In this document: piece by piece, positions 7,701 to 48,542 of the stretch
Numbering within the stretch: the first letter of the stretch is position 1
Layout of the letters: each line of letters starts with the position of its first letter
Source: Halorubrum sp. DM2
Lineage (GTDB): Archaea > Halobacteriota > Halobacteria > Halobacteriales > Haloferacaceae
DNA: 64,000 nt
Assembly: GCF_901686465.1 (NCBI RefSeq)
Contig: NZ_LR594487.1
Span: forward strand, 964,894 to 1,028,893
Reading direction: 5' to 3'
Notes under the pieces: generated by a model
What the model was told of the DNA's origin: nothing
Database searches by the model: none
What the model saw: only the letters and a program-made list of their open reading frames with translations
Position numbers and translations under genes: made by a program

Positions 7701-8467
7701 TCGACGTTTCGTCGCCGCCGCTCCCGTCGCTCTCGGCGAGCCTGCCGCAGACGCCGGTCGAGGTTCGCGCGCCCGAACTGCGCGCCGAATCCGGCGGCCG
7801 TCCAGTCCGGCTCGCGTCGAGGGCTCGGGAGGCGGTCGCGCGCGGCCGCCGCGTCTCCGGAGCCGGACGCCGCCAGCCTAACCTCCTCCAGCGCGTCGCG
7901 GACGGCGTCGCCGTCGGCCTCCGCCCCGCTCGCGTCGACGTCCGCGGGAAGAACCACCTCGTCGAGGAACCCCGAGCCGACGGCCGCGGCCAGTAGCGCT
8001 TGCCGGGTGTCTATCGCGGCGACGACCGGAAACCGGGTGGTGTCCCCCCGCGCTTCGGCCCTGTGTAGCCGCCAGATGACCCCGTCCGTGGCGACGCCGT
8101 AGTCTTCGTCTCTGAACGGGCCGATCGACCCCTCGATGTCCTCGCTCGCCTCGGCTATCTCGCCTACCGGTCTCGTTTCACCGACAACCGGCGCGTCGGT
8201 GTTCGTGATCCGGAAGTCCGGAGCCGTCACGCTCGGTCCCGCCCAGTCCTTCGACGGATCGCTGAACCGGAGGTCGGCCGCTTCGAGCATCGGGCGCACG
8301 AGCGTCTCCTCGGTGAACGTCTCCGGTTCGCATCCGAGATCAAAATCGTCGAGGGATCGTTCGCCGGTGAGGATCGCTTCGAACGCCTGCGGGCCGACCT
8401 CGTCGTGAAGGTCGGTGACAAACGCCTCGAAGGCCGCTCGGATTGCCGGATTCGGCGAGTCGGTCAT
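4703..8467 (-). CDS. Eco57I-like type IIG restriction / DNA adenine methyltransferase
   Basis: 1254-aa single-chain restriction-modification protein. Residues 1-150 form a nuclease-like region in which PDF (83-85) and GETR (96-99) sit where related enzymes carry PD...ExK. The methylase domain has GAIYTPP (454-460), the AdoMet-binding DPACGSGHF (553-561) and the catalytic NPPY (863-866) of gamma-class N6-adenine methylases. The C-terminal 370 residues should carry target recognition and include the TaqI-like ending (RRFPVPARSAVAPW). It is a solitary gene without separate R or S subunits, as expected for type IIG or PglX-like enzymes. The Lys-to-Arg change in ExK could affect cleavage. Confidence 0.88.
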   Translation of the reverse strand: MTDSPNPAIRAAFEAFVTDLHDEVGPQAFEAILTGERSLDDFDLGCEPETFTEETLVRPMLEAADLRFSDPSKDWAGPSVTAPDFRITNTDAPVVGETRPVGEIAEASEDIEGSIGPFRDEDYGVATDGVIWRLHRAEARGDTTRFPVVAAIDTRQALLAAAVGSGFLDEVVLPADVDASGAEADGDAVRDALEEVRLAASGSGDAAAARDRLPSPRREPDWTAAGFGAQFGRANLDRRLRQARRERRERRRRNVEEFYDRYVEVLFGEGTEHSFETNLLASVSPPDESTPESERRRFALALVNRLLFLRVLEEREVDGIERGFLAARVERYEASDPPGSLYESEIRPLFADLLNTPKRERPPDLRDPDSRRDRVPCLNDGLFRSAVPNEAAYDVEDGILKRIISELIEGIAEGGSPQTTNETLDPSVIGTVFEKVINHLGAKPDVGLQKKELGAIYTPPDVTERITERTVEPAIEAAVVDALLDRFDDADERAVVRSRLDRLNLGGILDHFAARERLVLRRDEGSVEVAVPFDEPNVIAAALKRVTDLRVVDPACGSGHFLTAAVDRLHRAQIKLLTGLNDGDEPSAGRRYEAKRELALTGVFGVDVHEAATEIARLRVWLKVIEDNGWEESYAQLPNVDANVVRGNALVGFPVTGDTSRTEVWNDDIAELEERRLAYKFDADVDADTRDEISDLLAEEIRPELDEKYVSLLSETTLDEDVESREELRRLVESIPDSENVSPSVQHVKARPAGGGEFSDRQQSTLEAAGFDVFHTGTTANLDVGERERVLKTQSDEASERLVRDLEAVLEERIVFTRVERQPLPLDLPEIKGRPFHWIAEFPEAVAETDSGYALDFDVVLGNPPYGDLLTDGEKRLLTSMETGVGYEELRRGEISGNFIERQLHLLSPDGFFGNVVTVGVLSSSERGAEHDLIVGGFESAEISSFARRPSQVFDRSGSRVEINPTIITGRPAGASDRDAERSEGSPGSIRSSDFLRFTDESREATIESHDLSPAADLVLRDRIGGDPGSEFDVFPKVGGETKRGVLEALSDAPRTLGDWEVDESPHRVRHRRSFNYWLVATRGGDDLNNMKEYCFPTETARDFAYLAANSSLLYGYHMTYGNMQDFGKGRFRRFPVPARSAVAPWRPLIRHYADLLEAGLSRHVESSGDIDYRGERGVKAVVDEVEFLLGSIYGLSPEQVRYLQTYDSEFARHGPDEYEPVPDAVAEAGGNDPVPTVGFDPETERDGDGTAPF

Positions 8468-13679: not shown

Positions 13680-13825
13680 ACCGCGGGTGACGGCGAACTG
13701 GGTGTAAATTGCTTTGGTAGTATTTGTTCAATTATGCCGAAACGACGTGGCATGGACCGGTTCGCGTGTCTTACACCGAGGCAATCTGAACGGCGACGCA
13801 GTATCAACTCTCCGGTAGTAGAAGA

Positions 13826-13907
13826 CCGAAATTGGGTGGCTGGGGAGTCCCAGCCCACCAATCCCACACGGCCAAAGACCGTGCGCGTTGTAGGTGGGCC
13901 AACACGG
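13826..13907. other. Left attachment region (attL) of the integrated element
   Basis: Bases 13892-13907 (AGGTGGGCCAACACGG) are identical to 48466-48481, which is the 3' end of the tRNA-Ile gene plus flank. A second matching block, GTGGCTGGGGAGT (13836-13848), recurs at 48411-48423. The two blocks are about 43 bases apart here and 42 there, with diverged sequence between. Only the tRNA 3' fragment is present, so this is the distal end and 48466-48481 is the tRNA end. Confidence 0.88.
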
Positions 13908-13958
13908 GCTTGGCCGTTCCGTCTACCGATTCTGCCGTCACTTGAGTATTGTCGTACA

Positions 13959-14990
13959 TCAGATGTCCTCCGGAATGTGCTCCTGCCGGCGGCGGGCTCG
14001 CTCCCGGTTACCGGCCTTGTCGTAGTGCTTCTCCAGTACGTCCTCCGAGGCGTCACCGCGATCGCTGATCACCGGGCGAGGCGTGCCCGCGTTCCGGTGC
14101 GCCGTGACACTCCCTGTGCGGACGTGGTGGGGCGCACGCGACGACGGACACTTGCTGGCTAGCTTCCCCTCGGTCGCCTCGCAATCGTCTATCTCGCGGC
14201 CGTGCGGGCATCCCTCGTCGATCACACAGGGACGCGTCACCCGGTAGATCCACGACTGGAGTGTCGAGACGCCCGGCCGGCCCTGATTCGTCGTCACGAG
14301 CGGGTTCCGGCCGACCCGGTCGACCTTGTCCAGCCGTGGGCCGTTCACGTAGTCGTCGACGACCTCCGCGACCGGCGGCTTCAGGATGACGTCGCGCTCG
14401 CTCGTTTCGCCGTTCTTCAGCGGCGTGAACGGCGGGCGGTGCCGGAACTCAAGCGCGCGGTCCTCTGAGTCCCAGTCGCCGAGGTCGAGGGCACGGACCC
14501 CGCCGCGACGCGCCGGGACGCGCCACATCAGCAGCAGCGTGACGTGGTGGCGGCTCGCGTACTCGTACTTCGAGAGGTAGTCGAGGATTGCCCTCGTGCG
14601 CTCCGAAGAGAGGATCGTGTCGTTCGACTGCTGGTCCTTCGAGGGCGACGGCACCCGGATGCGGTCCGGGAGGGTCTGCGGGACGCCGCGGATGTCGGCC
14701 ACCCGGTAGAGGAACTGCTTGACGGTCGAGACCTGCCCCTGCATCGTCATCATGTTACAGGGGTCGTGGTCGCCGTTGTCCTCGCGCTTCCAGACGCGCC
14801 ACTCGTGGACCATCCGGACGTCGACCTCGTTCATGTTCCGGACGTTCTTCCGGTCCTCCAGCCAGTCGACGAACGTCCCGATCCGGTACTCGTGGTCGCG
14901 GAGGGTCGCGCCGGCGAGCTCGCCGCGACGGTCGTCGAGGTAGTAGTCGAGCGCCGCGCTCGGCGTGATGGGGTCGAGGTCCTCGCTCAC
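13959..14990 (-). CDS. int: Tyrosine recombinase (element integrase)
   Basis: 343-aa integrase, the last gene of a four-gene minus operon and 52 bases from attL. The N-terminal SAM-like arm domain (about 10-100) is followed by a catalytic domain. The first Arg lies in ARRGGVRALDL, the HxxR box in APHHVRTGS, and the nucleophile Tyr in VLEKHYDKA. A Cys/His-containing insertion (VIDEGCPHGREIDDC) precedes the HxxR box, as in other haloarchaeal provirus integrases. The GTG start at 14990 overlaps the upstream stop (GTGA). It is the likely enzyme for tRNA-Ile integration. Confidence 0.92.
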   Translation of the reverse strand: MSEDLDPITPSAALDYYLDDRRGELAGATLRDHEYRIGTFVDWLEDRKNVRNMNEVDVRMVHEWRVWKREDNGDHDPCNMMTMQGQVSTVKQFLYRVADIRGVPQTLPDRIRVPSPSKDQQSNDTILSSERTRAILDYLSKYEYASRHHVTLLLMWRVPARRGGVRALDLGDWDSEDRALEFRHRPPFTPLKNGETSERDVILKPPVAEVVDDYVNGPRLDKVDRVGRNPLVTTNQGRPGVSTLQSWIYRVTRPCVIDEGCPHGREIDDCEATEGKLASKCPSSRAPHHVRTGSVTAHRNAGTPRPVISDRGDASEDVLEKHYDKAGNRERARRRQEHIPEDI

Positions 14991-15736
14991 AGTTGGTCCC
15001 CCATGTCGTCCGTCCGCTCGCTCACCGCATCGAACGGCCATCCGGTGACGTCGCCCCCGTAGAGGTCGCCGTAGACGTCGACGACGTCGGTCGCCGTCGC
15101 GCGGTCCGACAGGGCATTGCGGTCCGGGTTCAGATTGTTTCGCGCCGCGTCCCGCCGCCGGTCCCGAACCAACTGGACGAGGAGCGCGTTCCGGAGTTTG
15201 AGGGGCTCGGCGACGCGAGCGAGGTCAGTTTCGGTGCTACTGCGATGATTATAGCCGAGGATCCGGCCGAATTTCCCGGAGTATTTTTCCGGATCTGGCA
15301 CTTGATCCAATATGGTGTACGTAGTACACCATGTCAGAGGCAACTCCATGCCCTCCTCCCCCTCGTCGGCGTGACAATCTGCCCCGTTCTCGTCTTCACC
15401 GCCACCGTCTCGATCAGCGCCGCCGTCGGTGACGAGCTCGTGTTCGCCGGCGTGGTACCGGAGGTCCTCGACGAGTGAGATCGCGCGGTCGGCGTCGAGG
15501 TCGCGTCGGAACCGATCCCGGAGGTCGAGGTCCTCGACGACGCGGGCGTCCTCGCGGACTGAGAGCCGGGCGACGACATCGCCGTCCGCCCCGTGCCGGC
15601 GATCGACGAGGTCGTAGAGCGACTGGATCACGCCCCGGTGGTCGTCGAGAAGGCGCGCCGCGCGGTCGCGGTCGGCGTACGCGAGCACGGAGCCGTGGCG
15701 GTTCCGGCGGACTTCGACCTCGACGGTCGGACTCAT
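14987..15736 (-). CDS. Unrecognised 249-aa element protein
   Basis: Hypothetical protein between the J-domain gene and the integrase, overlapping both by 4 bases (ATGA, GTGA). The first half is charged and G+C-rich (VVEDLDLRDRFRRDLDADRAISL). Around residues 115-135 it is a low-complexity acidic linker (DGGGEDENGADCHADEGEEG). The segment MELPLTWCTTYTILDQVPDP then begins a part encoded by clearly A+T-richer DNA (15230-15340). This may be two fused or recombined pieces. No motif supports a function; the position suggests a role in integration, excision or early gene control. Confidence 0.6.
   Translation of the reverse strand: MSPTVEVEVRRNRHGSVLAYADRDRAARLLDDHRGVIQSLYDLVDRRHGADGDVVARLSVREDARVVEDLDLRDRFRRDLDADRAISLVEDLRYHAGEHELVTDGGADRDGGGEDENGADCHADEGEEGMELPLTWCTTYTILDQVPDPEKYSGKFGRILGYNHRSSTETDLARVAEPLKLRNALLVQLVRDRRRDAARNNLNPDRNALSDRATATDVVDVYGDLYGGDVTGWPFDAVSERTDDMGDQL
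15312..15332. repeat. 9-bp inverted repeat inside the 249-aa gene
   Basis: Arms ATGGTGTAC (15312-15320) and GTACACCAT (15324-15332) are perfectly complementary around a 3-base centre. The sequence falls in the A+T-rich part of the gene. It could be a protein-binding site or only a recombination scar; no function is shown. Confidence 0.5.
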
Positions 15737-17276: not shown

Positions 17277-17294
17277 TTGCCCGATGTCGGGCAA
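17277..17294. promoter_or_regulatory. Perfect palindrome abutting a start codon
   Basis: TTGCCCGATGTCGGGCAA has arms of 8 bases around TG and ends one base before the ATG of the repressor-like gene. Placed downstream of the TATA-like box at about 17232-17238, it would be in a short 5' leader. It could act as an operator or as an RNA hairpin next to the start codon. Confidence 0.6.
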
Positions 17295-17573
17295 ATGCGG
17301 CCGACTCCGGAGTGGATGACGATGACTGATCTGGTCATCTTGGAATTCCTCAATGACCACGATCTAGAGCTCGCTCCAAAGCCGCTATACCGAAACCTGA
17401 ACCGACACGGTCACGATGTCGGGTATTCGACTGTCCGCGGGCGATTGCCAAAGCTAGCTGAGAAGGGACTTTTACAGAAAGACAGCGATGGCTACTATGA
17501 GACGACTAATCTCGGTCGAGCCTACCTCGCTGGGGAGATTGATGCCGACGACTTGGAAGACGCCGACGTATGA
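17295..17573 (+). CDS. Winged-helix repressor, haloarchaeal phage-repressor type
   Basis: 92-aa protein (MRPTPEWMTMTDLVILEFLND) with a winged helix spanning most of its length: LAPKPLYRNLNRHGHDVGYSTVRGRLPKLAEKGLLQKDSDGYYETTNLG. The pattern matches the small haloarchaeal repressors of the phiH1 type. A TTG 18 nt upstream would extend the frame into the palindrome and is rejected. The gene is preceded by dyads in its promoter and a palindrome at its start, so autoregulation is likely. The C-terminus is acidic (DADDLEDADV). Confidence 0.78.
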   Translation: MRPTPEWMTMTDLVILEFLNDHDLELAPKPLYRNLNRHGHDVGYSTVRGRLPKLAEKGLLQKDSDGYYETTNLGRAYLAGEIDADDLEDADV

Positions 17574-17815
17574 TGCGAAATACGCCTGCGGTGATCGGAG
17601 AACACATTGCTCGTTCTCGACAGCAGGTCACGAATCAGCTATCCGAACTCTCTGACCGAGGGATCGTCGATAAGTTGGGGTTCTCCGCGAGAATTTCGGC
17701 CGGATACTCAATTATGTCGGACCAGAAAGAGTGTTTCTGCCCAGCAAGAGGAACGTTTTTTTCTTTGGTCCAGAGAAGTATCAGCAACAATATGGACGCC
17801 TTCGGCCGATCATGA
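17570..17815 (+). pseudogene. Truncated winged-helix gene at cargo boundary
   Basis: An 81-codon frame starting in the ATGA overlap with the repressor gene. Residues 3-37 (RNTPAVIGEHIARSRQQVTNQLSELSDRGIVDKLG) look like the first two-thirds of an archaeal winged helix. After that (FSARISAGYSIMSDQKECFCPARG) the similarity stops and the DNA becomes A+T-richer. I read it as a second small regulator cut by arrival of the methyltransferase/HerA cargo. It could still be expressed as a short fusion. Confidence 0.5.
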
Positions 17816-19269
17816 GTCTACAACGAACGACGCCAGACAATCATGGGAACCTACAGTACGACAACGAGGCATTCATGGATGCTCTCAGAAGTGGTGATGA
17901 CTTTCTCACTACTCAAGAAGTGGCTGAGGAAGTTGACTGTTCAAAAACGACAGCGTGGCGTCGCTTGACACAATTGAAAAATGTTGGCGCTGTCGATCGC
18001 CACGACGACGAGTGGCCCTACACGTGGGAAGCCGGTATCTACGTTCCATCTCGAAATGTCTCAGATCTACCGACCTCATGGCGGAGCGCGCCCCGAGGAT
18101 GGGGAAATCCCCTCCACACGATAGCGCCGTACATCGGTGGTTTCCCTCCGTCGTTAGCACATTACTTCATTGAACGGTTCTCGGAGCCGCGGGACACCGT
18201 TTATGATCCTTTCGCTGGCGGCGGAACAACTCCACTCGAGGCTGTCCTCCAAGGTCGTGTTGGCTGGGGAAGTGACGCCTTCGAGTACGCGACGGTTCTC
18301 TCACAAGCTAAGTGCCATCCAATGGAGACTGCTGAATTTGAAAAGTACCTTCTCGACGTGCTAAAGGCGGCTTCAGAGATTGATGGCCCAATACAACTCC
18401 TTGATGATGAGGACCCGAAAACGTTCTTCTCAGACTACACACTCAAGCAGCTTCTTGCTGTCCGAGAGGTTCTTCGAGGAGACAATTCCCGTGAGGCGAC
18501 ATACCTGAAAGCTATTATAGCCGGTGTGTTACACGGGCCCTCAGAAATGTTCCTCTCGCTTTCGACTCGCGACACATTCTCTGGCTCTGTTGATTACGTC
18601 AAAGATTACAAAAAAGAACACAATCTCGAAACTCCTGAAAAACACATTTGGGAGTCCGCGACGTCGAAACAAGAACTTGTCAGCGAAGAGCTTGATTCAT
18701 TTCCTGATGATGCGTTAGCACGAATTGAGCAAGCTGACTCGGGCAATGTGCCGTTCCCTGACGATAGTGTTGATCTATTGCTGACATCGCCTCCATACAT
18801 GCGTGTGCTTGATTATTCGTGGAACAATTGGCTTCGACTGTGGTGGTTGGATGCTGATCGCGAATCCGAACGAGATGAGCTGACTATCACAGAGAGTGAG
18901 TCGAGGTACAAAGATTTCGTTGAGGACACTCTTAGAGAGATTGAACGGGTGATTTCCGATAATGGATACGCCGTCATCGTCGTTGGCGACGTTCGGAAGC
19001 GGATGGCCAACCACGTAGAGTACATTAACACCGCCAAAATGTTCGCCAAAGTGGCTAGGGACTGTACGGATCTGATTCCTCGACAGATTCTGAATGATGA
19101 GTACGATCTTGACACCCGTAACTACGCGATGGCAAACCAACTCAAGTACGAATACAGCAGTGACGCGAAGGAAGAGAAGGCTATGAGTAAGCTGGATCGC
19201 TGTCTCATCTTGTCCCCCCACGAGGAACCCTTGCCATCTCCCGGAGAAGTTGAACTACCTTGGACCTGA
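17812..19269 (+). CDS. DNA amino-methyltransferase with N-terminal HTH
   Basis: 485-aa methyltransferase. An HTH (about 30-62, FLTTQEVAEEVDCSKTTAWRRLTQLKNVG) precedes a Rossmann domain with DPFAGGGTT (132-140, AdoMet binding) and the catalytic TSPPY (325-329). An S/T-PPY box is typical of N4-cytosine methylases, but N6-adenine activity cannot be excluded. The ATG at 17812 (MSLQRTTPDN) is chosen over an upstream start that crosses the truncated HTH frame. The G+C is visibly lower than in the flanks. It is the first gene of the putative defence locus and would mark self DNA. Confidence 0.88.
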   Translation: MSLQRTTPDNHGNLQYDNEAFMDALRSGDDFLTTQEVAEEVDCSKTTAWRRLTQLKNVGAVDRHDDEWPYTWEAGIYVPSRNVSDLPTSWRSAPRGWGNPLHTIAPYIGGFPPSLAHYFIERFSEPRDTVYDPFAGGGTTPLEAVLQGRVGWGSDAFEYATVLSQAKCHPMETAEFEKYLLDVLKAASEIDGPIQLLDDEDPKTFFSDYTLKQLLAVREVLRGDNSREATYLKAIIAGVLHGPSEMFLSLSTRDTFSGSVDYVKDYKKEHNLETPEKHIWESATSKQELVSEELDSFPDDALARIEQADSGNVPFPDDSVDLLLTSPPYMRVLDYSWNNWLRLWWLDADRESERDELTITESESRYKDFVEDTLREIERVISDNGYAVIVVGDVRKRMANHVEYINTAKMFAKVARDCTDLIPRQILNDEYDLDTRNYAMANQLKYEYSSDAKEEKAMSKLDRCLILSPHEEPLPSPGEVELPWT

Positions 19270-19324
19270 AAGATTCGGCCAAGGATAATTCCTACTGGAC
19301 CCTTTTCTATTACTCAGTAAGAAG

Positions 19325-19331
19325 TATTTAG
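19325..19331 (+). promoter_or_regulatory. TATA-like box of the HerA gene
   Basis: TATTTAG lies about 30 nt before the ATG at 19357, in an 87-base gap after the methyltransferase gene. The spacing fits a leaderless transcript and suggests that herA and the downstream genes can be transcribed separately from the methyltransferase. Confidence 0.5.
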
Positions 19332-19356
19332 TAGGCAGACTGTTTTCTCGAAACTA

Positions 19357-21468
19357 ATGAACTCTGGTGACGGAGTTGACCTTCCCCCCCAGACAGAGAT
19401 GTCTATCGATAAATTGCTAGAAGATGCCGACCACGTCGGGGGTGTGTTCTCAACTGGGTACGAAACATGCGATATATTGACGAACGATAAATGGACTCAG
19501 GATGCCGGTGGCCTTCCGAAGCATACGTTACTAATTGCTCGCCCGTTACTAGAGGGCGAGGAGATCGTCTCAGAAGAGGACGTTCACAATACGAACCGTC
19601 TGCCGGAAGAGCCGACCGAGTTCAGTAAACCGGAGCCTTCAGAGACGGAGTCCACACACGCACTCCTCCTGCGAGTGACAGAGCCTGCGGACATCCCCGA
19701 GCAAGGACGTCTTCGAACGAACCGGTTCGATGCGATGCGAGAGGCGATCACTGGTGACGAGAGCGGAACGCCTTCGCCGGAGGATTTCGTTGACGTGCTC
19801 ACCCGTCGTGAGATGCAGTACTCCGGCGTACAAACGAAGATTCTCGGGACCTTTCACCAGCAGGAGAACGACGATGGAGAAGAGGCGCTCACCTTCACTA
19901 GTGACGTACAGACATTCTTCTCGGCTGGCCATTACGTCGTGTACAAGCCTGATGGAGACGCGCTCCAGTGGATAGCAAGCTATCCCACCACTGTCAATAA
20001 CAATCCCGTGAAGTTGGGCAATGTGCGGTACACGACGACGGACATCTGGGGTGATCAAGGCGACGTCGGGATGTATTTTGATGTTGATGAGTTCATCGGT
20101 GCTAAGACGGCCGTGTTCGGGATGACTCGGAAAGGGAAATCGAACACGATGAAGATTATTGCTGGGGCGATCGAAGAGACCGATTCAGATATCGGCCAGT
20201 TAATCTTTGATCCGAGTGGCGAGTACGCATATGTTAACGATCAAGATGAGGCCGCATTAGGAGAATTACATGATGAAACTGGATCTATTTCAAGCGTGTA
20301 TAAGTTTGCTGCAGATGCTGACGAGAAATTCCGGCCTCTCCGTACGAATCTTCTGACCACCAGTAACCTGAATATTGTCCGGGATTATGTAAATCAAGAG
20401 TTGGTTGATGATTCTGCGCAATATGCAGACAATTTTGCGATGGCCGATATTCCCACTGATGAGGAGATTGACGATATGGAAGGAGGACGTAAGAAACGTG
20501 CAAAAAGACGGCAAACCGCCTTCTTTGCGGTGATATCCAAAGCTATCGGCGACCTTCCGGAATCCTTCAGAGAATATATATCAATCGACAGTAACGTACA
20601 GACAGCGGTCAATCAGAAGCTGGATTATGACATCCCCACAAAATTTGGGAGTATTGAGCTGAAGAAGGATGGCAGAAATAACACTCTCGTCGACTTTTGG
20701 GAAACTGTCGCGAGAAATAAGGAGGAAATCAATAGTGTAGCTGATGATGGAGACTGGATCGGTGAGGAACTACAGAAAATCCTGAAAATGCTCCAAACCT
20801 CTGGAAGCCGAACAGGGTACAACAAGCTCAATGGACTCGCTGATTACCACAGTTCAGCTCGGGACGTGAACGTTCCCACGGAGATCTATGAAGAGCTTGA
20901 AAATGGTGAGATGGTGATAGTTGACATCTCAAATGGGCTTGACCAAGTCGTTACCTCAGAGACAGAGCGAATCGTCTCCAGAGTACTCAAGGAATCTATG
21001 AACCGGTTCCGTGATATCGATCGCGATGAGGAGCTCCCTAAGATTCAGGTCTACTTGGAGGAGGCCCACCAGCACTTCGAGGAATACAGAGATGATGACG
21101 ACATGAACCCCTTTGTCACGCTCGCAAAGGAAGGTGCCAAATTCGATATCGGAATGACGTATGCGACCCAGGAAGTCAGCAGTGTCGATTCTAGAGTCCG
21201 GGCGAACACAGCAAACTGGATCGTCACCCACATCAATAGTAAGAAAGAAACGAGAGAACTCGGCCGCTACTACAACTTTGAGGACTTCGCTGAATCCATT
21301 CGAAATGTTGAGGATGTGGGTTACGCTCGAGCAAAGACATACCGTGGGGAGTACATCATTCCAATTTCAGTTTCCCTCTTCAATGCTGATTGGGTATCGA
21401 ACAACACCGAATTCGGTGTCTGGAAAGACGACGAGTATATAGTTGATCCCCCCACTCAGGAGGATTGA
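19357..21468 (+). CDS. HerA-family ATPase / DNA translocase
   Basis: 703-aa HerA/FtsK-superfamily ATPase. The Walker A is GMTRKGKSN (255-263) and the Walker B-like acidic strand is VYLEEAHQHF (565-574). ATQEVSSVDSRVRANTANWIVTHI is the sensor/arginine-finger region of HerA. The N-terminal 245 residues likely contain the HAS barrel plus extra sequence. HerA forms hexamers that pump DNA and usually work with NurA. Here the nurA-like gene follows at once, as in archaeal end-resection pairs and in HerA-based defence modules. It is larger than the housekeeping HerA (about 500-600 aa). Confidence 0.9.
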   Translation: MNSGDGVDLPPQTEMSIDKLLEDADHVGGVFSTGYETCDILTNDKWTQDAGGLPKHTLLIARPLLEGEEIVSEEDVHNTNRLPEEPTEFSKPEPSETESTHALLLRVTEPADIPEQGRLRTNRFDAMREAITGDESGTPSPEDFVDVLTRREMQYSGVQTKILGTFHQQENDDGEEALTFTSDVQTFFSAGHYVVYKPDGDALQWIASYPTTVNNNPVKLGNVRYTTTDIWGDQGDVGMYFDVDEFIGAKTAVFGMTRKGKSNTMKIIAGAIEETDSDIGQLIFDPSGEYAYVNDQDEAALGELHDETGSISSVYKFAADADEKFRPLRTNLLTTSNLNIVRDYVNQELVDDSAQYADNFAMADIPTDEEIDDMEGGRKKRAKRRQTAFFAVISKAIGDLPESFREYISIDSNVQTAVNQKLDYDIPTKFGSIELKKDGRNNTLVDFWETVARNKEEINSVADDGDWIGEELQKILKMLQTSGSRTGYNKLNGLADYHSSARDVNVPTEIYEELENGEMVIVDISNGLDQVVTSETERIVSRVLKESMNRFRDIDRDEELPKIQVYLEEAHQHFEEYRDDDDMNPFVTLAKEGAKFDIGMTYATQEVSSVDSRVRANTANWIVTHINSKKETRELGRYYNFEDFAESIRNVEDVGYARAKTYRGEYIIPISVSLFNADWVSNNTEFGVWKDDEYIVDPPTQED

Positions 21469-21470
21469 TT

Positions 21471-22841
21471 GTGCCGTATCCGTCACAGGTACCCAACAGT
21501 ATCGGGCACGTCGAGAGTATCAAGGACGAGACGCTCATTGAGGACCTCGGCAACTTCGAGTACGATCCTCCATCTCCTGAAGAAGCGAACGACTTCGATT
21601 CAGTGCCTGCTCGTGAACTCTCAGGATCTGATGATCTCGGTCCGTCCTTCGAGAGTGTCTACGGGCTTGATGGTTCTCGTGTTGAAATCCCTGTTGGCGA
21701 TCCCCGATTCAACAAGCGGATCGGGGTGATTGATATCGCCCTGATCAACCTCGACATTGGGACGCTCAACGAGGAGGCGCGCAAGGCGTATGTTACCCCC
21801 TCGAAGGTAGATGGCCTCGGGACAGAACATCACGTTCGAATGGCGCTTCCAAGTACCAACACACGCTATGAAGCACCAACAGTCCACGAGAGTTGGCGAA
21901 AGATGACGTTTCATAACTTCCAGGAGAAGTCGGTTTTCGATCAAACACTGTTCGATATCTACTTCAATCTTCTCGAGCGTGCTGGTCGGTTTCACAACAA
22001 TCGGATTCGAATCGAGCAGTGTCCTGCCCAAGACTGTAACCATGGACCCCAGTTCGTTAACTCAACCAGTCCAGACTATTGCCCAGTCTGTGGGACCACA
22101 ATATATCCGACTGATCCACTACGCGTCCACGAACGTGTGACTGGATCGCAATCAAATGAAGCCGCACTGAATGTACTGATGGGATTGATTGAGCATATGG
22201 TTCTTCTCGGGGCAGCTGATAACGTCTGGTACGACAACCCTGCGGAACTTGAGACGACCGCCTTCATCAAGGATGGCCCGCTCGCACAGTTCGATACCGC
22301 GGCTTGGATCCACGAACCAATTCATAATAAGCTGTCTCAGTTTCAACGATATCTCCGAGATAACGGTCGCCAGCCACTCGTCTACATGGGGATCCACAAA
22401 ACGGGCGACTTCGCGGCTTACGCACAGGAGGTTCGCGACTATCTAGATGGCCCGACCGTACTGCCTCTCTCAAATGAAGATATCTATGAGCACGTCATCG
22501 CTGGCGACCGAACTGCCGAATATGCCATCAAAACGTACTACGGCAAGAATTTCTTGTATAAATCGGCAAAAGGAAACGGAACTGGCCATTGCCTCCCGTT
22601 TTTGATTCCACGCCGGTACGAGGAGGGGCCCTTAGGTGAGAAGCAAGGAGACGCAACGATTGTACAAGATCCCGATGCTTATGAAGAGCTCGCACGGGCC
22701 ATTAGTCTACTCGAGCGGCTTCGGACTGTTCAGTACACCGATGGGATCATCCCGCTTGTCCTAGCCCACGAAGCTGCGTCTATCCCAGAAGACCTTGGTC
22801 GCAGAGTATTTGGTCGAATTGCTGAGAAGGTTACGCGATGA
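21471..22841 (+). CDS. NurA-domain nuclease
   Basis: 456-aa nuclease of the NurA superfamily. The metal-binding motif DGS is at 67-69 (YGLDGSRVEI) and a second family signature, FIKDGPL, is near 265-271. A zinc-ribbon-like insertion CPAQDC (184-189) and CPVC (204-207) lies between them. It is expected to degrade or process DNA with the HerA hexamer. The GTG at 21471 is preceded by AGGAGG at 21458-21463; a TTG at 21465 is less likely. The stop overlaps the ATG of a 32-codon frame (ATGA). Confidence 0.88.
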   Translation: MPYPSQVPNSIGHVESIKDETLIEDLGNFEYDPPSPEEANDFDSVPARELSGSDDLGPSFESVYGLDGSRVEIPVGDPRFNKRIGVIDIALINLDIGTLNEEARKAYVTPSKVDGLGTEHHVRMALPSTNTRYEAPTVHESWRKMTFHNFQEKSVFDQTLFDIYFNLLERAGRFHNNRIRIEQCPAQDCNHGPQFVNSTSPDYCPVCGTTIYPTDPLRVHERVTGSQSNEAALNVLMGLIEHMVLLGAADNVWYDNPAELETTAFIKDGPLAQFDTAAWIHEPIHNKLSQFQRYLRDNGRQPLVYMGIHKTGDFAAYAQEVRDYLDGPTVLPLSNEDIYEHVIAGDRTAEYAIKTYYGKNFLYKSAKGNGTGHCLPFLIPRRYEEGPLGEKQGDATIVQDPDAYEELARAISLLERLRTVQYTDGIIPLVLAHEAASIPEDLGRRVFGRIAEKVTR

Positions 22842-22936
22842 ATTCTCTCAGAAAACAACAAGATGTATATCGGTCTATACTAAACATGGTATCAGATAGT
22901 CGTCTCGGTACGGCATTCAGAGGTGACATCCAATGA
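22838..22936 (+). CDS. 32-aa microprotein in the HerA-NurA locus
   Basis: A 33-codon frame that starts in the ATGA overlap with the NurA stop (22838-22841) and ends in an ATGA overlap with the next gene (22933-22936). It fills exactly what would otherwise be a gap. The product begins MNSLRKQQDVYRSILNMV and ends FRGDIQ; it is basic at the N-terminus and probably helical. Double stop-start overlap is the pattern of translational coupling in this genome. It could instead be a short coupling leader without a functional product. Confidence 0.6.
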   Translation: MNSLRKQQDVYRSILNMVSDSRLGTAFRGDIQ

Positions 22937-24117
22937 CCACCAATCTCAGTGAGGATGATATCCTCGCAAGGATCCGAGACGGGCTCCGTGATGCGGTCGA
23001 AGGACATAATCTAAACTGGACTTACGGAACCAAAATCCAGAAACAGAAGTACGTTGACCTTGCTCTCAACCACTATATTGGTCCGATTTTAACAGAAGAA
23101 GGGCAACGCTCGCCGATTACGCGGAGTTGGTACAAGTACGGCTGCGTACAGACGGCGAGTACATTTCAAACGAACTTAACCACTAGGGAGAAATCGCAAG
23201 AAGCGCGTACGCTAACAGAAGCGAACTCTTCGTCATCTGAAGATTGGGAAGCTAAGCTCAAAACGGAATTCGAACCTTCTGGAGAACTCTTAGTCCCTGA
23301 AGAGGGAACCGGTGTTCCACCGGCACAGCACCCGATCGCTGATCACCAGTCCGCAAAATTCACCGAGTTTTTCCTCGACACAGATCTGTCGCCACCGCTT
23401 GACGAAGAACACTGGGTTAACAAGTCGGATCTTGAGTTCCTCGAGCCATATTACATTGATAATGCGCCCCCTGAAGTACAAGATCTGTACCTCGCGAATC
23501 TTGCTCTCCGACAGACTCTCACGGATGCGTACCAGACAGCACAGCACATCGACGAAAACCGCGCAAAGTTGTTAACGGGCGATACCGATCTTGATGTCGA
23601 CTGGACGCCTAAATCGTATGCTCGTGATGCCGGACAAGCAGCTGTCAAGCTTCGTCTGGCAATCCGACAAAGTTCCATTGTTCCGGATAGCCTCATTGAC
23701 CCTGTTTTGAAGTTTACAGACCTGGTTGAAGATCTCCTTCTCGCACTGACCAAGTTGGATTCAGTCAATATTCGCACCCGACATTATCGAGTGATCAAAC
23801 AGGTTGATGAGTTCCTTGATGGGAAGCTATGGGAATGGATTGCAAGATATATTTCTCACGCAACAGTCGTCGGGCCGCGGGCAGCGTCTTGGCGGAAAGA
23901 CTCTCGGAAGCGTATTGCCAAGTTTGCGGAGGAATGCCCCAGTCAAATTGAGTCGCTTCGGACTAACCTACATCAACAAGGCCTCCTTCCCGCGATGAGT
24001 GAGTACAATACTGCTGAATTAGGTGCTGGCCCAGCTGAACAGTTCATGGCTCAGGTTGATGACGCTGCCATCCGAAACCTGACGACTGAATCGACTACAG
24101 GTGATGACAATGAATAA
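22933..24117 (+). CDS. Unrecognised 394-aa protein of the HerA-NurA locus
   Basis: Hypothetical cytoplasmic protein (starts MTTNLSEDDILARIRDGLRD). It is predicted mainly alpha-helical, with long amphipathic parts at about 185-215 and 245-320. It has no Walker, HEPN, PLD or nuclease signature that I can see and no membrane segment. It is coupled upstream to the microprotein (ATGA) and overlaps the next gene by 14 bases, so it is an integral member of the locus. It could be an adaptor, sensor or specificity subunit; I do not assign a function. Confidence 0.75.
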   Translation: MTTNLSEDDILARIRDGLRDAVEGHNLNWTYGTKIQKQKYVDLALNHYIGPILTEEGQRSPITRSWYKYGCVQTASTFQTNLTTREKSQEARTLTEANSSSSEDWEAKLKTEFEPSGELLVPEEGTGVPPAQHPIADHQSAKFTEFFLDTDLSPPLDEEHWVNKSDLEFLEPYYIDNAPPEVQDLYLANLALRQTLTDAYQTAQHIDENRAKLLTGDTDLDVDWTPKSYARDAGQAAVKLRLAIRQSSIVPDSLIDPVLKFTDLVEDLLLALTKLDSVNIRTRHYRVIKQVDEFLDGKLWEWIARYISHATVVGPRAASWRKDSRKRIAKFAEECPSQIESLRTNLHQQGLLPAMSEYNTAELGAGPAEQFMAQVDDAAIRNLTTESTTGDDNE

Positions 24118-24859
24118 AGAAAAAATCCCGCCAGTGGAGACTGAGGAAGTCTTTCTTGACACGTCTGTATTGTATGACTACACGAAAGATACAGTCCAAG
24201 AAGCCAAAACCCTCTTCGATGAGTATCCTGAAATCAATAAAATAACGAGTGCCGCTGGTGAACGAGAGTATCGAAAGGTTGCTGAACGCCGCGCTGAAGC
24301 GATCAAAGAGTGTGAAGAATTTGCTGCTGAAAACCAACTATCGAAATTCTCGTTCCACTCACTGGATTTTCTGACACCCAACGATCGAGGTTCGTTGAGA
24401 CAGTACCGAGATAAGTTGTTGCGGAATTGTTCTGAGGCAGAAGCACTCCGCCGTCTCAATCAGCGGAAAAGAACGTACCAGCGGGGTGTTGAGCTCTTAT
24501 TCGACGGAAAGGATGCACTCGTTACTGTCCGCGATCTTGAGTTCCGTATCTCTCTCGAGAAGCAGTTACAGATGGATATTGATAACGGAAATGACCGTAG
24601 AATCCTTTGTCACGCTGCTGATTGGCACGCTAAGGAATTTGGCAATGCCTTTGCCACCTCTGATACTGGCGACTTCGCTGACGAAGACGGTCTAGGGGAT
24701 TACCTAATGACGGATGGTGGAGAACTCCCTGATTCGCTGTCCGATCTAGGAAGCCGGCCACTCATAGAACGAATTAACGACTCGATCCAATCAGAGTACT
24801 CCTCCGAAATGTGGCTTCATATTGTTGATATTGAGCAGTTGCTTGAGGTTGCTGGTTGA
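24104..24859 (+). CDS. PIN-like nuclease domain protein
   Basis: 251-aa protein with features of a PIN-fold ribonuclease. The first acidic strand is EEVFLDTSVLYDY (D19). A distal acidic cluster, GNDRRILCHAADWH and FATSDTGDF (about 165-200), matches the metal-coordinating region. Helices between them are longer than in VapC toxins. Alternative starts lie at GTG 24101 and ATG 24110; all three overlap the end of the 394-aa gene. As the last gene of the HerA-NurA locus it may be an RNase or DNase effector. Catalysis is inferred, not shown. Confidence 0.7.
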   Translation: MTMNKEKIPPVETEEVFLDTSVLYDYTKDTVQEAKTLFDEYPEINKITSAAGEREYRKVAERRAEAIKECEEFAAENQLSKFSFHSLDFLTPNDRGSLRQYRDKLLRNCSEAEALRRLNQRKRTYQRGVELLFDGKDALVTVRDLEFRISLEKQLQMDIDNGNDRRILCHAADWHAKEFGNAFATSDTGDFADEDGLGDYLMTDGGELPDSLSDLGSRPLIERINDSIQSEYSSEMWLHIVDIEQLLEVAG

Positions 24860-27461: not shown

Positions 27462-28250
27462 TCACACACCCTCCGGCTCGAAGTTCATCACCAACCGCTC
27501 TTTCGCGTCCTTCGCTTCTCCACGCTTTCCGCTGTTGATGAACCGCTTCTCGTCGCGATCGACCACGTACACCTCTTCGAACCCTTCCGGCAGATCCTCG
27601 TACGAGCAGATCCAGTCGCCCTCCAATCCCGCGAGCCCGTCGACGAGCGCCGCGTGATCGATCGTGTTCACAAGGTAGTAGTCCTCGTACCCGACGTACG
27701 GCGGGTCGCAGTAGAACACGGTGTCCTCGCTGTCGTACTTCTCGAAGACGTCGGCCCAGTCGAGGTTCTCGACGACGACATCTCCGAATCGGTCGGCGAA
27801 CTCGTCGAGCCGGTCGACCTTGTTCGCGTACGACAGCGCCCGACTGCTGACCTTCGAGGTCCCGAACCCGGCCGGGCCGTCGTACTTTCCGCCCCACTGC
27901 GTGTACCGGAGGTAGAAGAACTGGCCGGCGCGCTCGATCGGGTCGCTCGGCCGGTAGCCGTTGAAGAACTTGTGCGCCCACTCGTCGTGGAGCTCCCGCG
28001 AGTACGGCGTCCGGTCGAGCCACTCGACCAGCTCGTCGCACCGATCGCGGAGGACCTCGAAGAACTGGACGAGGTCGCCGTCGCGGTCGTTGTACACCTC
28101 GACTGTGCTCGTGTCCGGGTCCTTGTTCGCGAGGACGCCGGCCCCGCCACCGAACACTTCCACGAAGCAGGTGTGCTCCGGAACGTGGTCGAGGATCCAC
28201 GACGCGAAGCGACTCTTCCCGCCGGGATAGGGGAAGACGGCGTCCGCCAT
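27462..28250 (-). CDS. Dam-like D12-class N6-adenine DNA methyltransferase
   Basis: 262-aa alpha-class adenine methylase. The AdoMet-binding motifs are FPYPGGKSR (6-14) and FVEVFGGGAGV (29-39), and the catalytic motif is DPPY (182-185, in VFYCDPPYVGYEDYY). The order and length fit the Dam/D12 family. It has no partner endonuclease, so it is an orphan methylase that could protect element DNA or time its replication. The G+C is high, like the element core. The start overlaps the stop of the 106-aa gene by one base (TAATG), giving an operon behind the promoter at 28594-28630. Confidence 0.92.
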   Translation of the reverse strand: MADAVFPYPGGKSRFASWILDHVPEHTCFVEVFGGGAGVLANKDPDTSTVEVYNDRDGDLVQFFEVLRDRCDELVEWLDRTPYSRELHDEWAHKFFNGYRPSDPIERAGQFFYLRYTQWGGKYDGPAGFGTSKVSSRALSYANKVDRLDEFADRFGDVVVENLDWADVFEKYDSEDTVFYCDPPYVGYEDYYLVNTIDHAALVDGLAGLEGDWICSYEDLPEGFEEVYVVDRDEKRFINSGKRGEAKDAKERLVMNFEPEGV

Positions 28251-28659: not shown

Positions 28660-29694
28660 TTAGACGTGTTCGGGATGCTGTTCCGGATGGTCGACGTCGA
28701 CGAGATGGTACCGCTTCGTCCCGCGGTGTCGCTCGATGTCGACGAGGTTGTAGTGTTCCAACTTCGGGAGGTGATTCTCTCGGAGATACCGGAGCGTCAC
28801 CGGGTCGTCGTGTACCTCCTCGTATCGGGCGTACAGCTCCTTCTGGATGAGCCCGTCCTCCTCGGCGAGGACCTCGTACAGCGCGTGCTGGTGAGTGTTC
28901 AGCTTCGATATCGTCTTCTGTCGGACCTCGCACTTGGCGTCGGTGACCGCGTCCTCTACGAGCCGAGACGGGATCGCCGACAGTCCCTCGCGGCTCGCCA
29001 TCCGCGCGCCGACCCGAAGCGCCGCGATCGCCCGGCGTGCGTCCCCTTCGGAGAGGCGCGCTATCTGCGAGACGACGTCTTCGTTCACGGCTCCCGGGCC
29101 GAGTCCCTCGCGAGCGCGTCGATCGAGGATTTCCGCGATCGTATCCTCGCCGTAGGAGTCGAAGTGGACCCGATAGCCGACACTGATCCGGGAGGTGATT
29201 CGATCGTCGAGGTCGGCGAAGAGATCGACCTCGCGGTTCGCGATGCCGATCCACGAGAGCCCGCGGATCTCGTGGAGGTCGTAGAGTACCTTCGTCTCGC
29301 GCAGCTGGTCGACCTCGTCGAGGATGACGACGCCCGGCCCGTGGAGGTTGTCCGTGATCAGGTCGACGAGCCGGCCGGTCGAGGCTGTCCGCGGGAGGGC
29401 AGCGCCTACCAGGTCTCGAGCGATCTGTTCGAGGACTGCGTTCCGTGTGTAGTCCTGCCAGCAGTTCACGTAGGCGTGCGGGACGTCGAGGACTTCCTGC
29501 CGGAGCTCGCGAACAGCGGCGCGGGCGACAGTTGTCTTCCCGACGCCGGAGGGGCCGAAGAGAAAACAGTTCTCGGCGCGGAAGCCGTCCTGAATCGGTG
29601 CCAGCGCGTCCGTCACTTCGTTCATGTGGCTGTTCCGGCCGACAATCGAAGTGGGGAGGTGGTCGTCGTCGAACACCGTTCCGTCGCGTATCAC
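28660..29694 (-). CDS. Orc1/Cdc6-type replication initiator
   Basis: 344-aa AAA+ initiator. Walker A is GPSGVGKTT (47-55), Walker B is VVILDEVDQL, and sensor 1/2 segments (IANREVDL, LSEGDARRAIAALRVG) follow. The C-terminal winged helix (about 260-344) includes VTLRYLRENHLPKLEHYNLVDIE. The GTG at 29694 (VIRDGTVFDDDHLP) is chosen because Orc1 proteins start this way and a TATA box GGATATAAGCC lies 24-30 nt upstream; a longer frame crosses that promoter. It probably drives replication of the excised element. No obvious ORB repeats are seen beside it. Confidence 0.92.
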   Translation of the reverse strand: MIRDGTVFDDDHLPTSIVGRNSHMNEVTDALAPIQDGFRAENCFLFGPSGVGKTTVARAAVRELRQEVLDVPHAYVNCWQDYTRNAVLEQIARDLVGAALPRTASTGRLVDLITDNLHGPGVVILDEVDQLRETKVLYDLHEIRGLSWIGIANREVDLFADLDDRITSRISVGYRVHFDSYGEDTIAEILDRRAREGLGPGAVNEDVVSQIARLSEGDARRAIAALRVGARMASREGLSAIPSRLVEDAVTDAKCEVRQKTISKLNTHQHALYEVLAEEDGLIQKELYARYEEVHDDPVTLRYLRENHLPKLEHYNLVDIERHRGTKRYHLVDVDHPEQHPEHV

Positions 29695-29716
29695 GTTTCG
29701 GTCGGTCACGGCGCGG

Positions 29717-29757
29717 GGATATAAGCCGACGGTCAGGCCTTCCGGATGGTTCCGAAT
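29717..29757 (-). promoter_or_regulatory. Element promoter with phased operator (copy 3)
   Basis: The TATA box reads GGATATAAGCC on the plus strand (29717-29727). TTCCG occurs at 29740-29744 and 29750-29754, again 10 bases apart, and the first is 16 bases from AGCC as in copies 1 and 2. It serves the Orc1/Cdc6 gene starting at 29694. Confidence 0.7.
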
Positions 29758-29780
29758 GACCCGATTGGTGAGGACTTTCC

Positions 29781-30785
29781 TCAGTACCAATAATCCTCTA
29801 ACAGTTGCTCGCCTTGCTCTGTCAACTGAACTGTGTCATCCTCCAGTTGAATGTAACCGATATGCTTCATACGTAAAATACGCTGCTCAATATTCTCATT
29901 CGGGTTTACGAGTCCGTTCTTGATATACTCCACTGTGGTTGTGCCTCCTTGCTCGCGCACGATATCAGCAATACTGAGTTGAAGAAGCTGTAGTTTAGTG
30001 CCCAGCTGTTCGAAGCCGATCCCGGAATCGGGACTAACAATTTCATCGTGATCTAAACCGGAGTTGAGATCTCCATCCGCTAGTTCCTCACTCAGCATTT
30101 CGTTCACTTGCTCCGCAATACTCTTGATTTGAGCTTCTTCCTGTGAACTGAATTCTGGCCAAGCACTATGTGCCAAATCATTCCTGAAAGAGGCCATCTG
30201 CTGGAGAACTCCATGCTCCTCTTCGTCAAGGATTCCGAACAAATGTGCGAATCGAATTCGATCGCGGTGGCCCATCCTATCCACGATCTCAAACTCTCTG
30301 GTAGAGAGTGTGTCCCCCTTCTCCTCCTGTAACCTCAGGAGCGAACGCATCTTCAGGAAATCCTCATAAAAAGCACTTTGACGGATGAGAAGTGGTTTGT
30401 ATAGGTCGTTTTCAAGAAAATCTTCTTCTGCCTCAAGCTCATCATATATTAAATCACCAAGACCAAGTCGAACAAGTTGCTGATGGATTAGACCTAGTAT
30501 TTCAGCCAACTCGGATTGATCCTCCTGCCATTCTTTCGGAATGTTTCTTATCAGAATCCCTGGCTCGTCGCTGGTATCATCGGAATCAACCTCTTTCATC
30601 CCTTGCTCAAAGTCATCAATCAAATCACCGATTGGTTTCCGATAGAAGTCATTGATAGATTCAAATGTTCCAAAATCTTCACTCACTTTTTCTGCCCATT
30701 CATCCATGTCCATTATCAACCTCATTCCTGCGTCGGTATACTCGATATCAATTACATACTCTTCAGTCGAGGATGGATCGCTCAT
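29781..30785 (-). CDS. HEPN-like protein with C-terminal winged helix
   Basis: 334-aa soluble, acidic, helical protein. Residues 201-206 read RNDLAH within QQMASFRNDLAHSAWP, matching the Rx4-6H signature of HEPN ribonucleases. The last 75 residues look like a winged helix (TTVEYIKNGLVNPNENIEQRILRMKHIGYIQLEDDTVQLTEQG). A HEPN-wHTH combination would suit an RNase with regulatory or abortive-infection function. A+T-rich cargo DNA adjoins the Orc1 promoter directly. No antitoxin neighbour is obvious. The HEPN call rests on one motif and is tentative. Confidence 0.6.
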   Translation of the reverse strand: MSDPSSTEEYVIDIEYTDAGMRLIMDMDEWAEKVSEDFGTFESINDFYRKPIGDLIDDFEQGMKEVDSDDTSDEPGILIRNIPKEWQEDQSELAEILGLIHQQLVRLGLGDLIYDELEAEEDFLENDLYKPLLIRQSAFYEDFLKMRSLLRLQEEKGDTLSTREFEIVDRMGHRDRIRFAHLFGILDEEEHGVLQQMASFRNDLAHSAWPEFSSQEEAQIKSIAEQVNEMLSEELADGDLNSGLDHDEIVSPDSGIGFEQLGTKLQLLQLSIADIVREQGGTTTVEYIKNGLVNPNENIEQRILRMKHIGYIQLEDDTVQLTEQGEQLLEDYWY

Positions 30786-30996
30786 TAAAAAAGTGGTATA
30801 CTACAACCGGTAAAAGTCCACTTACCGATACATCTCTCCCTCAATCTACCTTCGAATTGATGAGACCTCTCGTCCACTGTTGAACTCTATCGACTTGTTA
30901 TAGAAGTCGTCACTCAACCCCCGCATATCGCCTCAATCACGCCGATCCGCGGGTGGGTTCTGCCGTCTTATGTATGACCTTGTTAGAGAACTTCCC

Positions 30997-31611
30997 ATGC
31001 GCCTCGAAGCGACCGGGAAATCAGACCAGTACAAAGTGTGGCTCCGCGACGATGAGCTCGGCGAACTCCGCCGGGTGGCTGGCGGTCACCGCGACGACCT
31101 GATTATCCAACTCGGCGGGTATGTGGGACTCCGCGCGTTCGAGATCCCGCAGGTATGTCCACGTCACGTGAAACGGACTCCTGACGGTGACCACTTCCGA
31201 CTGCGCGTACCTGAGGGGAAAGACACGACCGGCGGGGGTGGAAAGCCTCGTGACGCCTACCTTCCGAGTGACGTCGAGGGCGACATCCACCGGTACGTGA
31301 CTAGCGAGGAGATCGGTCGCGACGAGCCGATCGTTGACCTTTCGGTGACCGGTGTCCGGGCAGCGGTCAAACGCACGGCCGAGCGTGCGGTTGAGACGAC
31401 CGGCGATGACGACTTTCTCCACGTGTCGAGTCATGACCTCCGACGCCGGTTCGCGCAGCGGCTTCTCGTCGACGAGCAAATGAACCCTCGTGTCGTTATG
31501 GCCGTAGGCGGGTGGGACTCGTTTCAGGCGATAGAACCGTATCTTAATAGTCCAACTACTAAAGTGATAAATAACGCATTTGATGATATGAACAGAAACA
31601 ATTTAAAATAA
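30997..31611 (+). CDS. Second tyrosine-recombinase-like protein (catalytic domain only)
   Basis: 204-aa XerC/D-like protein. The first Arg lies in GGYVGLRAFEIPQV, the HxxR box in SSHDLRRRFAQRL, a Gly-Gly-Trp replaces the third box (MAVGGWDSFQ), and a Tyr sits at IEPYLNS. It lacks the N-terminal core-binding arm of full integrases, as do other short haloarchaeal XerC-like proteins. The ATG at 30997 (MRLEATGK) lies 29 nt after a TATA-like TTATGTA; an ATG at 30970 would be inside that box. The 3' end runs into A+T-rich DNA, so the last residues may be replaced. Confidence 0.75.
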   Translation: MRLEATGKSDQYKVWLRDDELGELRRVAGGHRDDLIIQLGGYVGLRAFEIPQVCPRHVKRTPDGDHFRLRVPEGKDTTGGGGKPRDAYLPSDVEGDIHRYVTSEEIGRDEPIVDLSVTGVRAAVKRTAERAVETTGDDDFLHVSSHDLRRRFAQRLLVDEQMNPRVVMAVGGWDSFQAIEPYLNSPTTKVINNAFDDMNRNNLK

Positions 31612-48400: not shown

Positions 48401-48481
48401 CGGAAATTAGGTGGCTGGGGAGTTGTACGGCCCCAACCGCGGTGGCATAACGCCGACCGCTTCTGAGGTGGGCCAACACGG
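48401..48481. other. Right attachment region (attR) at tRNA-Ile
   Basis: AGGTGGGCCAACACGG (48466-48481) is identical to 13892-13907 and overlaps the tRNA 3' end by 13 bases. The accessory block GTGGCTGGGGAGT (48411-48423) also recurs at the left end. Since the whole tRNA is retained on this side, crossover occurred within the tRNA 3' part. Confidence 0.88.
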
Positions 48482-48542
48482 ATTTGAACCGTGGACCTCC
48501 CGGTTATCAGCCGAGCGCTCAACCTGACTGAGCTATTGGCCC
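48469..48542 (-). tRNA. tRNA-Ile (anticodon GAU)
   Basis: A 74-nt cloverleaf without encoded CCA. The acceptor pairs GGGCCAA with TTGGCCC, with discriminator A. The D arm is GCTC...GAGC, the anticodon stem CTCGG... CCGGG carries the loop CTGATAA (anticodon GAT), and the T arm is CACGG-TTCAAAT-CCGTG. CTCGG/CCGGG leaves one G-T pair. The element integrated into its 3' end, and the gene stays intact. Confidence 0.96.

Follow-up and report, generated by a model that had tools for sequence, protein, structure and literature searches.

In a 64,000-nucleotide (nt) stretch of the genome of Halorubrum sp. DM2 (contig NZ_LR594487.1, positions 964,894 to 1,028,893; the window), a locus encodes a DNA methyltransferase (MTase), a HerA ATPase and a NurA nuclease, followed by a helical protein of 394 amino acids (aa), here called U394, and a PIN-domain nuclease. 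The MTase-HerA-NurA locus looks like an uncatalogued immune system. We consider it probable that the five genes constitute a two-layer defence of a mobile island, with Tdp-like restriction that uses base methylation as a self mark and a latent U394-PIN RNase. The genes were found where an earlier note, made from the sequence of the window, had placed them, and with the motifs it had listed:

17812..19269, forward strand: DNA methyltransferase of the circularly permuted N4/N6 type with an N-terminal winged helix (Pfam N6_N4_Mtase, 8.6e-15; PADLOC MTase_II, 4e-31)
19357..21468, forward strand: HerA/FtsK-type ATPase (DNA translocase), 703 aa (Pfam DUF87, 6e-13)
21465..22841, forward strand: NurA-family nuclease, 458 aa, start at TTG 21465 or GTG 21471, with an inserted zinc-binding-like cysteine segment
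22933..24117, forward strand: U394, 394 aa, all-helical new family, first gene of the U394-PIN module (40-member alignment)
24104..24859, forward strand: PIN-domain nuclease, second gene of the module, start at GTG 24101 or ATG 24104

NurA of this family was present in 7 of 391 haloarchaeal genomes, one per genus, with the genera spanning five families, and HerA and MTase were encoded in the same locus as NurA in all seven. An MTase with at least 40% identity was found in exactly these seven genomes and in none without HerA-NurA. The chance that two sets of seven members coincide among 391 is about 4e-15 when genomes are taken as independent, a figure that is made optimistic by kinship. The earlier note had proposed a restriction-like system in which the methylase marks self and HerA-NurA attacks DNA, and had stated that homologues never occurring together would speak against it. 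Co-occurrence of MTase, HerA and NurA was complete in the 391 genomes, and the genome context supported the proposal. Separate searches of 72,556 plasmids with HerA and with NurA returned the same 5 records, and the triad also occurred in Deferribacter and in metagenome-assembled genomes of Latescibacterota and Dehalococcoidia. A first scan of genome contigs with a single NurA sequence gave no matches, nor did scans of viral contigs and phages. An IS200/IS605 element with TnpB interrupts the Deferribacter copy of HerA (L107:5281-7060), which is probably inactive as a result.

Five further genomes of the same phylum, which we call methanogens by kinship, have a D12-class adenine methylase, unrelated to the permuted MTase, directly in front of HerA-NurA of this family (5/5). 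Since this enzyme replaces the MTase in all five, a DNA-modifying enzyme is kept, though not one family. HerA-NurA is thus the constant pair, normally with a replaceable methylase, and this is the pattern expected of methylation as a protective mark. The linkage of a methyltransferase gene to that of a DNA-degrading nuclease, by which restriction-modification systems are recognized, is also present. Three non-haloarchaeal loci (L136:5536-15390, L137 and L138) encode a 164-aa frame resembling modified-base readers, a D12 methylase, HerA, NurA and a Sacsin-like/NO VEIN protein of about 1624 aa; they may carry a different accessory layer.

The HerA protein contains a Walker A motif GMTRKGKS and a Walker B motif YLEEAH, and GMTRxGKSN and EEAH were invariant in the alignment of its relatives. 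These invariant motifs, the DUF87 score above the cut-off and matches to HerA and TdpA chains in the PDB place the protein in the HerA family. Searched against the PDB, the HerA profile matched TdpA best (8wet, E = 7e-22), with weaker matches to Sulfolobus HerA (8e-12) and further HerA proteins; chains of defence HerA proteins were also matched. Membership of the MADS system was considered, as HerA matched mad8 (3e-15), but was rejected: generic HerA models scored similarly, and no other MADS component was present among the proteins of the locus.

The window NurA had no match when this protein alone was searched against Pfam, and the Pfam NurA model matched one of 11 family members only (2.6e-5). 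The window protein has the motifs DGS and IKDGPL, of which DGS and DGPLA were invariant in 11 homologues, and the homologues include proteins annotated as NurA. In a fold search with the predicted model, the top match was 8wfd_G (E = 1.4e-5, probability 1.00), a chain of the TdpAB complex that we take to be TdpB, followed by NurA of Thermotoga, Deinococcus and Sulfolobus; the entries behind the TdpAB chain were 1zup, the NurA chain of 7f6d and 2ygk. The predicted RNase H-like NurA fold, the N-terminal DGS and the downstream DGP motif are those of the NurA family. Because HerA and NurA were searched separately and the same complex was best for each, they independently point to one known complex, TdpAB. 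An argument from haloarchaea without any HerA-NurA, as was said of H. volcanii (PMC7776575), was dropped, since proteins of both this genome and the H. volcanii control match the Pfam NurA model.

In the MTase, motif I (DPFAGGGTT) precedes motif IV (TSPPY), the order of the circularly permuted N4/N6 class. The cores of both motifs were invariant across the aligned relatives, and N4-cytosine methyltransferases were among the nearest PDB relatives. In the window, 87 nt separate MTase and HerA. Among relatives the MTase gene can be found upstream in the same orientation as the pair, divergent from it, convergent with it or downstream of it, and MTase and HerA need therefore not share an operon. 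More distant MTases (29-37% identity; L092-L097) had no HerA or NurA beside them and were set aside as a different system.

The closest likeness among known systems is to TdpABC, in which a motor and a NurA-fold nuclease are likewise encoded beside a DNA-modification gene. TdpAB degrades DNA without phosphorothioate marks, which are placed by TdpC. The locus has the TdpA-like motor with the TdpB-like nuclease and differs in the modification gene, which is not TdpC: it is a base methyltransferase of one of two families, or is absent. U394-PIN is an additional difference. We infer that in the first layer the methyltransferase would mark host DNA, while a HerA hexamer would translocate along duplex DNA and feed mark-free DNA to NurA for degradation. 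The logic would be that of TdpABC or Dnd/Ssp, with base methylation replacing phosphorothioate. The HerA-NurA end-processing complex of thermophilic archaea and Deinococcus consists of the same two protein families from adjacent genes, whereas the pair described here is methylase-linked, mobile and sporadic, in a host with another NurA-domain protein. SIR2-HerA and HerA-DUF4297 also combine a HerA hexamer with an effector enzyme, and PDB matches to such defence HerA chains were obtained, but their partners are SIR2 or DUF4297 and not NurA, and they are not defined by a methylase. In PADLOC-DB 2.0.0, neither NurA nor U394 was matched at E ≤ 1, and PIN had only an unrelated weak match. In the open-access literature searched, no description of the combination was found. 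The role of HerA-NurA is debated between repair and antiviral function. In the widespread family described here the pair is tied to interchangeable DNA methylases, so that a role in degrading non-self as opposed to self DNA becomes directly testable in genetically tractable haloarchaea.

U394 is a new protein family, with members of 320-440 aa. No convincing Pfam family was found in any of 40 members. The AlphaFold2 (AF2) model was confident and helical (predicted local distance difference test, pLDDT, 84.6) and had no match among PDB and viral structures. A Panacea (DUF4065) antitoxin domain, suggested by a KxQKLxY motif, was rejected, as it had neither Pfam support (40 members, E ≤ 1) nor a fold match. 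The family occurred in 53 of the 391 haloarchaeal genomes and, outside the haloarchaea, in seven archaea of the same phylum. In 38 of the 40 loci read in detail, U394 was followed on the same strand by a frame of 216-270 aa, mostly overlapping or within 20 nt; one further locus showed a longer overlap. In the non-haloarchaeal loci the PIN frame was directly downstream in 5/7. The acidic residues D20, E56, D165 and D188, the four of the PIN nuclease active site, were kept in 37-38 of 39 partners, with the copies in L044 and L062 as exceptions, and Pfam PIN models matched 12 (PIN), 7 (PIN_12) and 4 of the 39. The source genome has a second U394 copy (G000 C1:771024-772016; L044:8971-10739) with a downstream partner lacking the PIN acidic residues; this is possibly a decayed or repurposed module.

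We compared neighbours locus by locus instead of pooling PADLOC family counts. DISARM, DpdJ-like, type IIG or STAND/ApeA genes were present within 10 kb of U394 in 18 of the 33 other loci. DISARM accounted for 7 (six of these are closely related and amount to little more than a single case), the DpdJ-like helicase for 7, type IIG for 3 and STAND/ApeA for 1. The same defence families were found in 0/20 random windows from the same genomes, a control that is somewhat favourable, as the reference proteins were taken from the U394 loci themselves. We concluded that U394-PIN is a portable module that travels with several unrelated immune systems.

Could the module, then, be an independent toxin-antitoxin or abortive-infection unit that merely lies beside MTase-HerA-NurA, as genes accumulate in defence islands? 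The frequency of U394 (53/391 genomes, compared to 7 with NurA) means that it occurs mostly without HerA-NurA. Around U394-PIN of the non-haloarchaeal archaea none of the reference defence genes was found, and a U394 clade of 10 likewise had no recognised defence neighbour. We nevertheless regard this explanation as rather unlikely. The U394 subfamilies sort by partner system, with 8 changes compared to 21.8 in shuffles, and in the NurA tree one clade (100/100) has U394-PIN in all six members, in each immediately downstream of NurA (6/6). The sister haloarchaeal clade has no U394-PIN; it includes L043, L100, L101 and L099, the last of which is cut off by a contig edge. U394 of the six HerA-NurA loci forms one group (94/84). 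The trees of HerA, NurA, U394 and PIN have a common branching, L042, L041, (L039, L040), (window, L038), with L041 weakly supported in the U394 tree, while the MTase tree differs. Since the four trees agree and that of the MTase does not, a single gain of U394-PIN in one HerA-NurA clade is probable, followed by joint inheritance with HerA-NurA and by exchange of the MTase.

Gene overlap and co-inheritance would fit the view of the earlier note that PIN acts directly with HerA-NurA in degrading foreign nucleic acid. This view was not supported and is improbable: U394-PIN is a separate two-gene module, mostly without HerA-NurA and near unrelated systems, and it does not accompany the core in the sister clade (L043, L100, L101) or in the bacterial loci. 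A translation-blocking backup is more likely than a part of the DNA-degrading machine. In the two-layer defence that we favour, U394 would hold or sense for the PIN nuclease, and when infection is detected or the first layer is blocked, PIN would cleave RNA, probably tRNA or mRNA, and halt translation as PrrC does for PrrI. More tentatively, U394 could be a guard that senses failure or engagement of the accompanying DNA-targeting system and then releases the PIN RNase to stop translation. If so, U394-PIN would be an archaeal equivalent of PrrC that at least four unrelated systems have recruited (HerA-NurA, DISARM, DpdJ-like helicase and type IIG), and one mechanism of a new family linked to several immune systems could explain a common archaeal backup strategy. 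PrrI-PrrC would share with this proposed second layer a latent RNase beside a DNA-restriction system, but there is no sequence relation: a PIN nuclease and U394 take the place of PrrC. VapBC resembles the module in that the PIN protein is encoded second and overlaps its upstream partner gene. However, the partner in VapBC is a small DNA-binding antitoxin that neutralises the PIN toxin, and U394 greatly exceeds VapB in size and lacks any VapB-like domain. According to an established proposal by Makarova and colleagues, for which PrrC served as model, toxin nucleases are widely coupled to immunity genes and restrained by immunity components (PMC3506569), and backup effectors of BREX were reported to include PIN RNases (PMC12839542).

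Several points weigh against this two-layer interpretation. On three plasmids of cyanobacteria, HerA and NurA are accompanied by a small HTH gene and by no adjacent MTase. In one haloarchaeal genome (G322, locus L041) a frameshift interrupts motif I of the MTase next to intact HerA and NurA genes. In such cases the mark may be dispensable or come from another enzyme, or the sequences may contain sequencing errors or the loci be in decay. No subunit for sequence recognition was identified for the system. The predicted NurA structure is of moderate confidence only (pLDDT 62.5). Cleavage of RNA by PIN is an expectation from the family, in which some proteins cut DNA. The frameshift in L041 (5210-6510, reverse strand) lies in a G-rich stretch, with U394 and PIN intact as well, and the genes downstream of the pair on the cyanobacterial plasmids (L104-L106) vary (exonuclease-STAND, NERD/kinase, AbiTii).

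The locus is part of an integrated element of about 34.6 kb, bounded by two copies of a 16-nt repeat. The features of the element are as follows:

13892..13907, no strand: putative attL, left attachment repeat, 16 nt, same sequence as 48466-48481 (found by blastn with 13781-13960 as query and the window as subject)
48466..48481, no strand: putative attR, right attachment repeat, at the 3' end of tRNA-Ile (48467-48542, reverse strand)
13959..15041, reverse strand: probable tyrosine integrase, 360 aa, adjoining attL inside the element (open frame, assigned from position and sequence only)
17277..17573, forward strand: small winged-helix protein, 98 aa, possible regulator (Pfam HTH_12, 9e-6)
22838..22936, forward strand: 32-codon frame, comparable frame in L038 only

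The integrase-like frame and the repeat pair, with its right copy at the tRNA-Ile 3' end, bear out the earlier assignment to an integrated element, and the lower G+C content was confirmed (0.47-0.54 in the defence locus, mostly 0.66-0.74 in the flanks). A Pfam search with the integrase-like frame gave no match at E ≤ 0.01. A stretch of about 93 bp ending at attL was present at other places in relatives. Frame overlaps were found as described for HerA/NurA (4 nt) and U394/PIN (up to 17 nt), but not through a microprotein between NurA and U394. Relatives have 51-97 nt between these two genes, the 32-codon frame has a counterpart only in the nearest relative (L038), and it is probably not a gene. 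The 98-aa winged-helix protein, which may or may not belong to the defence system, had homologues in L041 and L058.

The genes might serve the element itself, with HerA acting as a translocase in its replication, segregation or transfer and the MTase shielding it from host restriction. An Orc1/Cdc6-like gene in the element and the HerA/FtsK proteins known from mobile elements (PMC10853773) would fit. We consider this quite improbable, as the triad or the pair also occurs on unrelated plasmids and on chromosomes of distant phyla without conserved element genes adjacent. A function of HerA-NurA in DNA end resection or repair, as such pairs are classically annotated, is very unlikely for a pair that is sporadic (7/391), carried by an integrated element and by plasmids and combined with two unrelated methylase families, in a host with another NurA-domain protein and three further DUF87 proteins above the cut-off elsewhere in its genome, and a recent biochemical study argues that end resection is not a suitable task even for an archaeal HerA-NurA pair encoded on the chromosome (PMC12977600). 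No mre11/rad50 operon partners were identified beside the window HerA-NurA pair, and the genome has its Rad50-like AAA_23 matches only at distances of more than 20 kb from the window.

At 28660-31611 of the window the element encodes the Orc1/Cdc6-like ATPase and a further integrase-like frame, which is short; the element may be of plasmid origin. The same element encodes a D12-class adenine methylase (27462-28250, reverse strand), a close homologue of which (E = 9e-136) is located near the same system in L042 (4087-4866). Outside the element, a 1254-aa frame (4703-8467, reverse strand) is related to the type IIG restriction-methyltransferase near U394-PIN in L053 (E = 4e-45).

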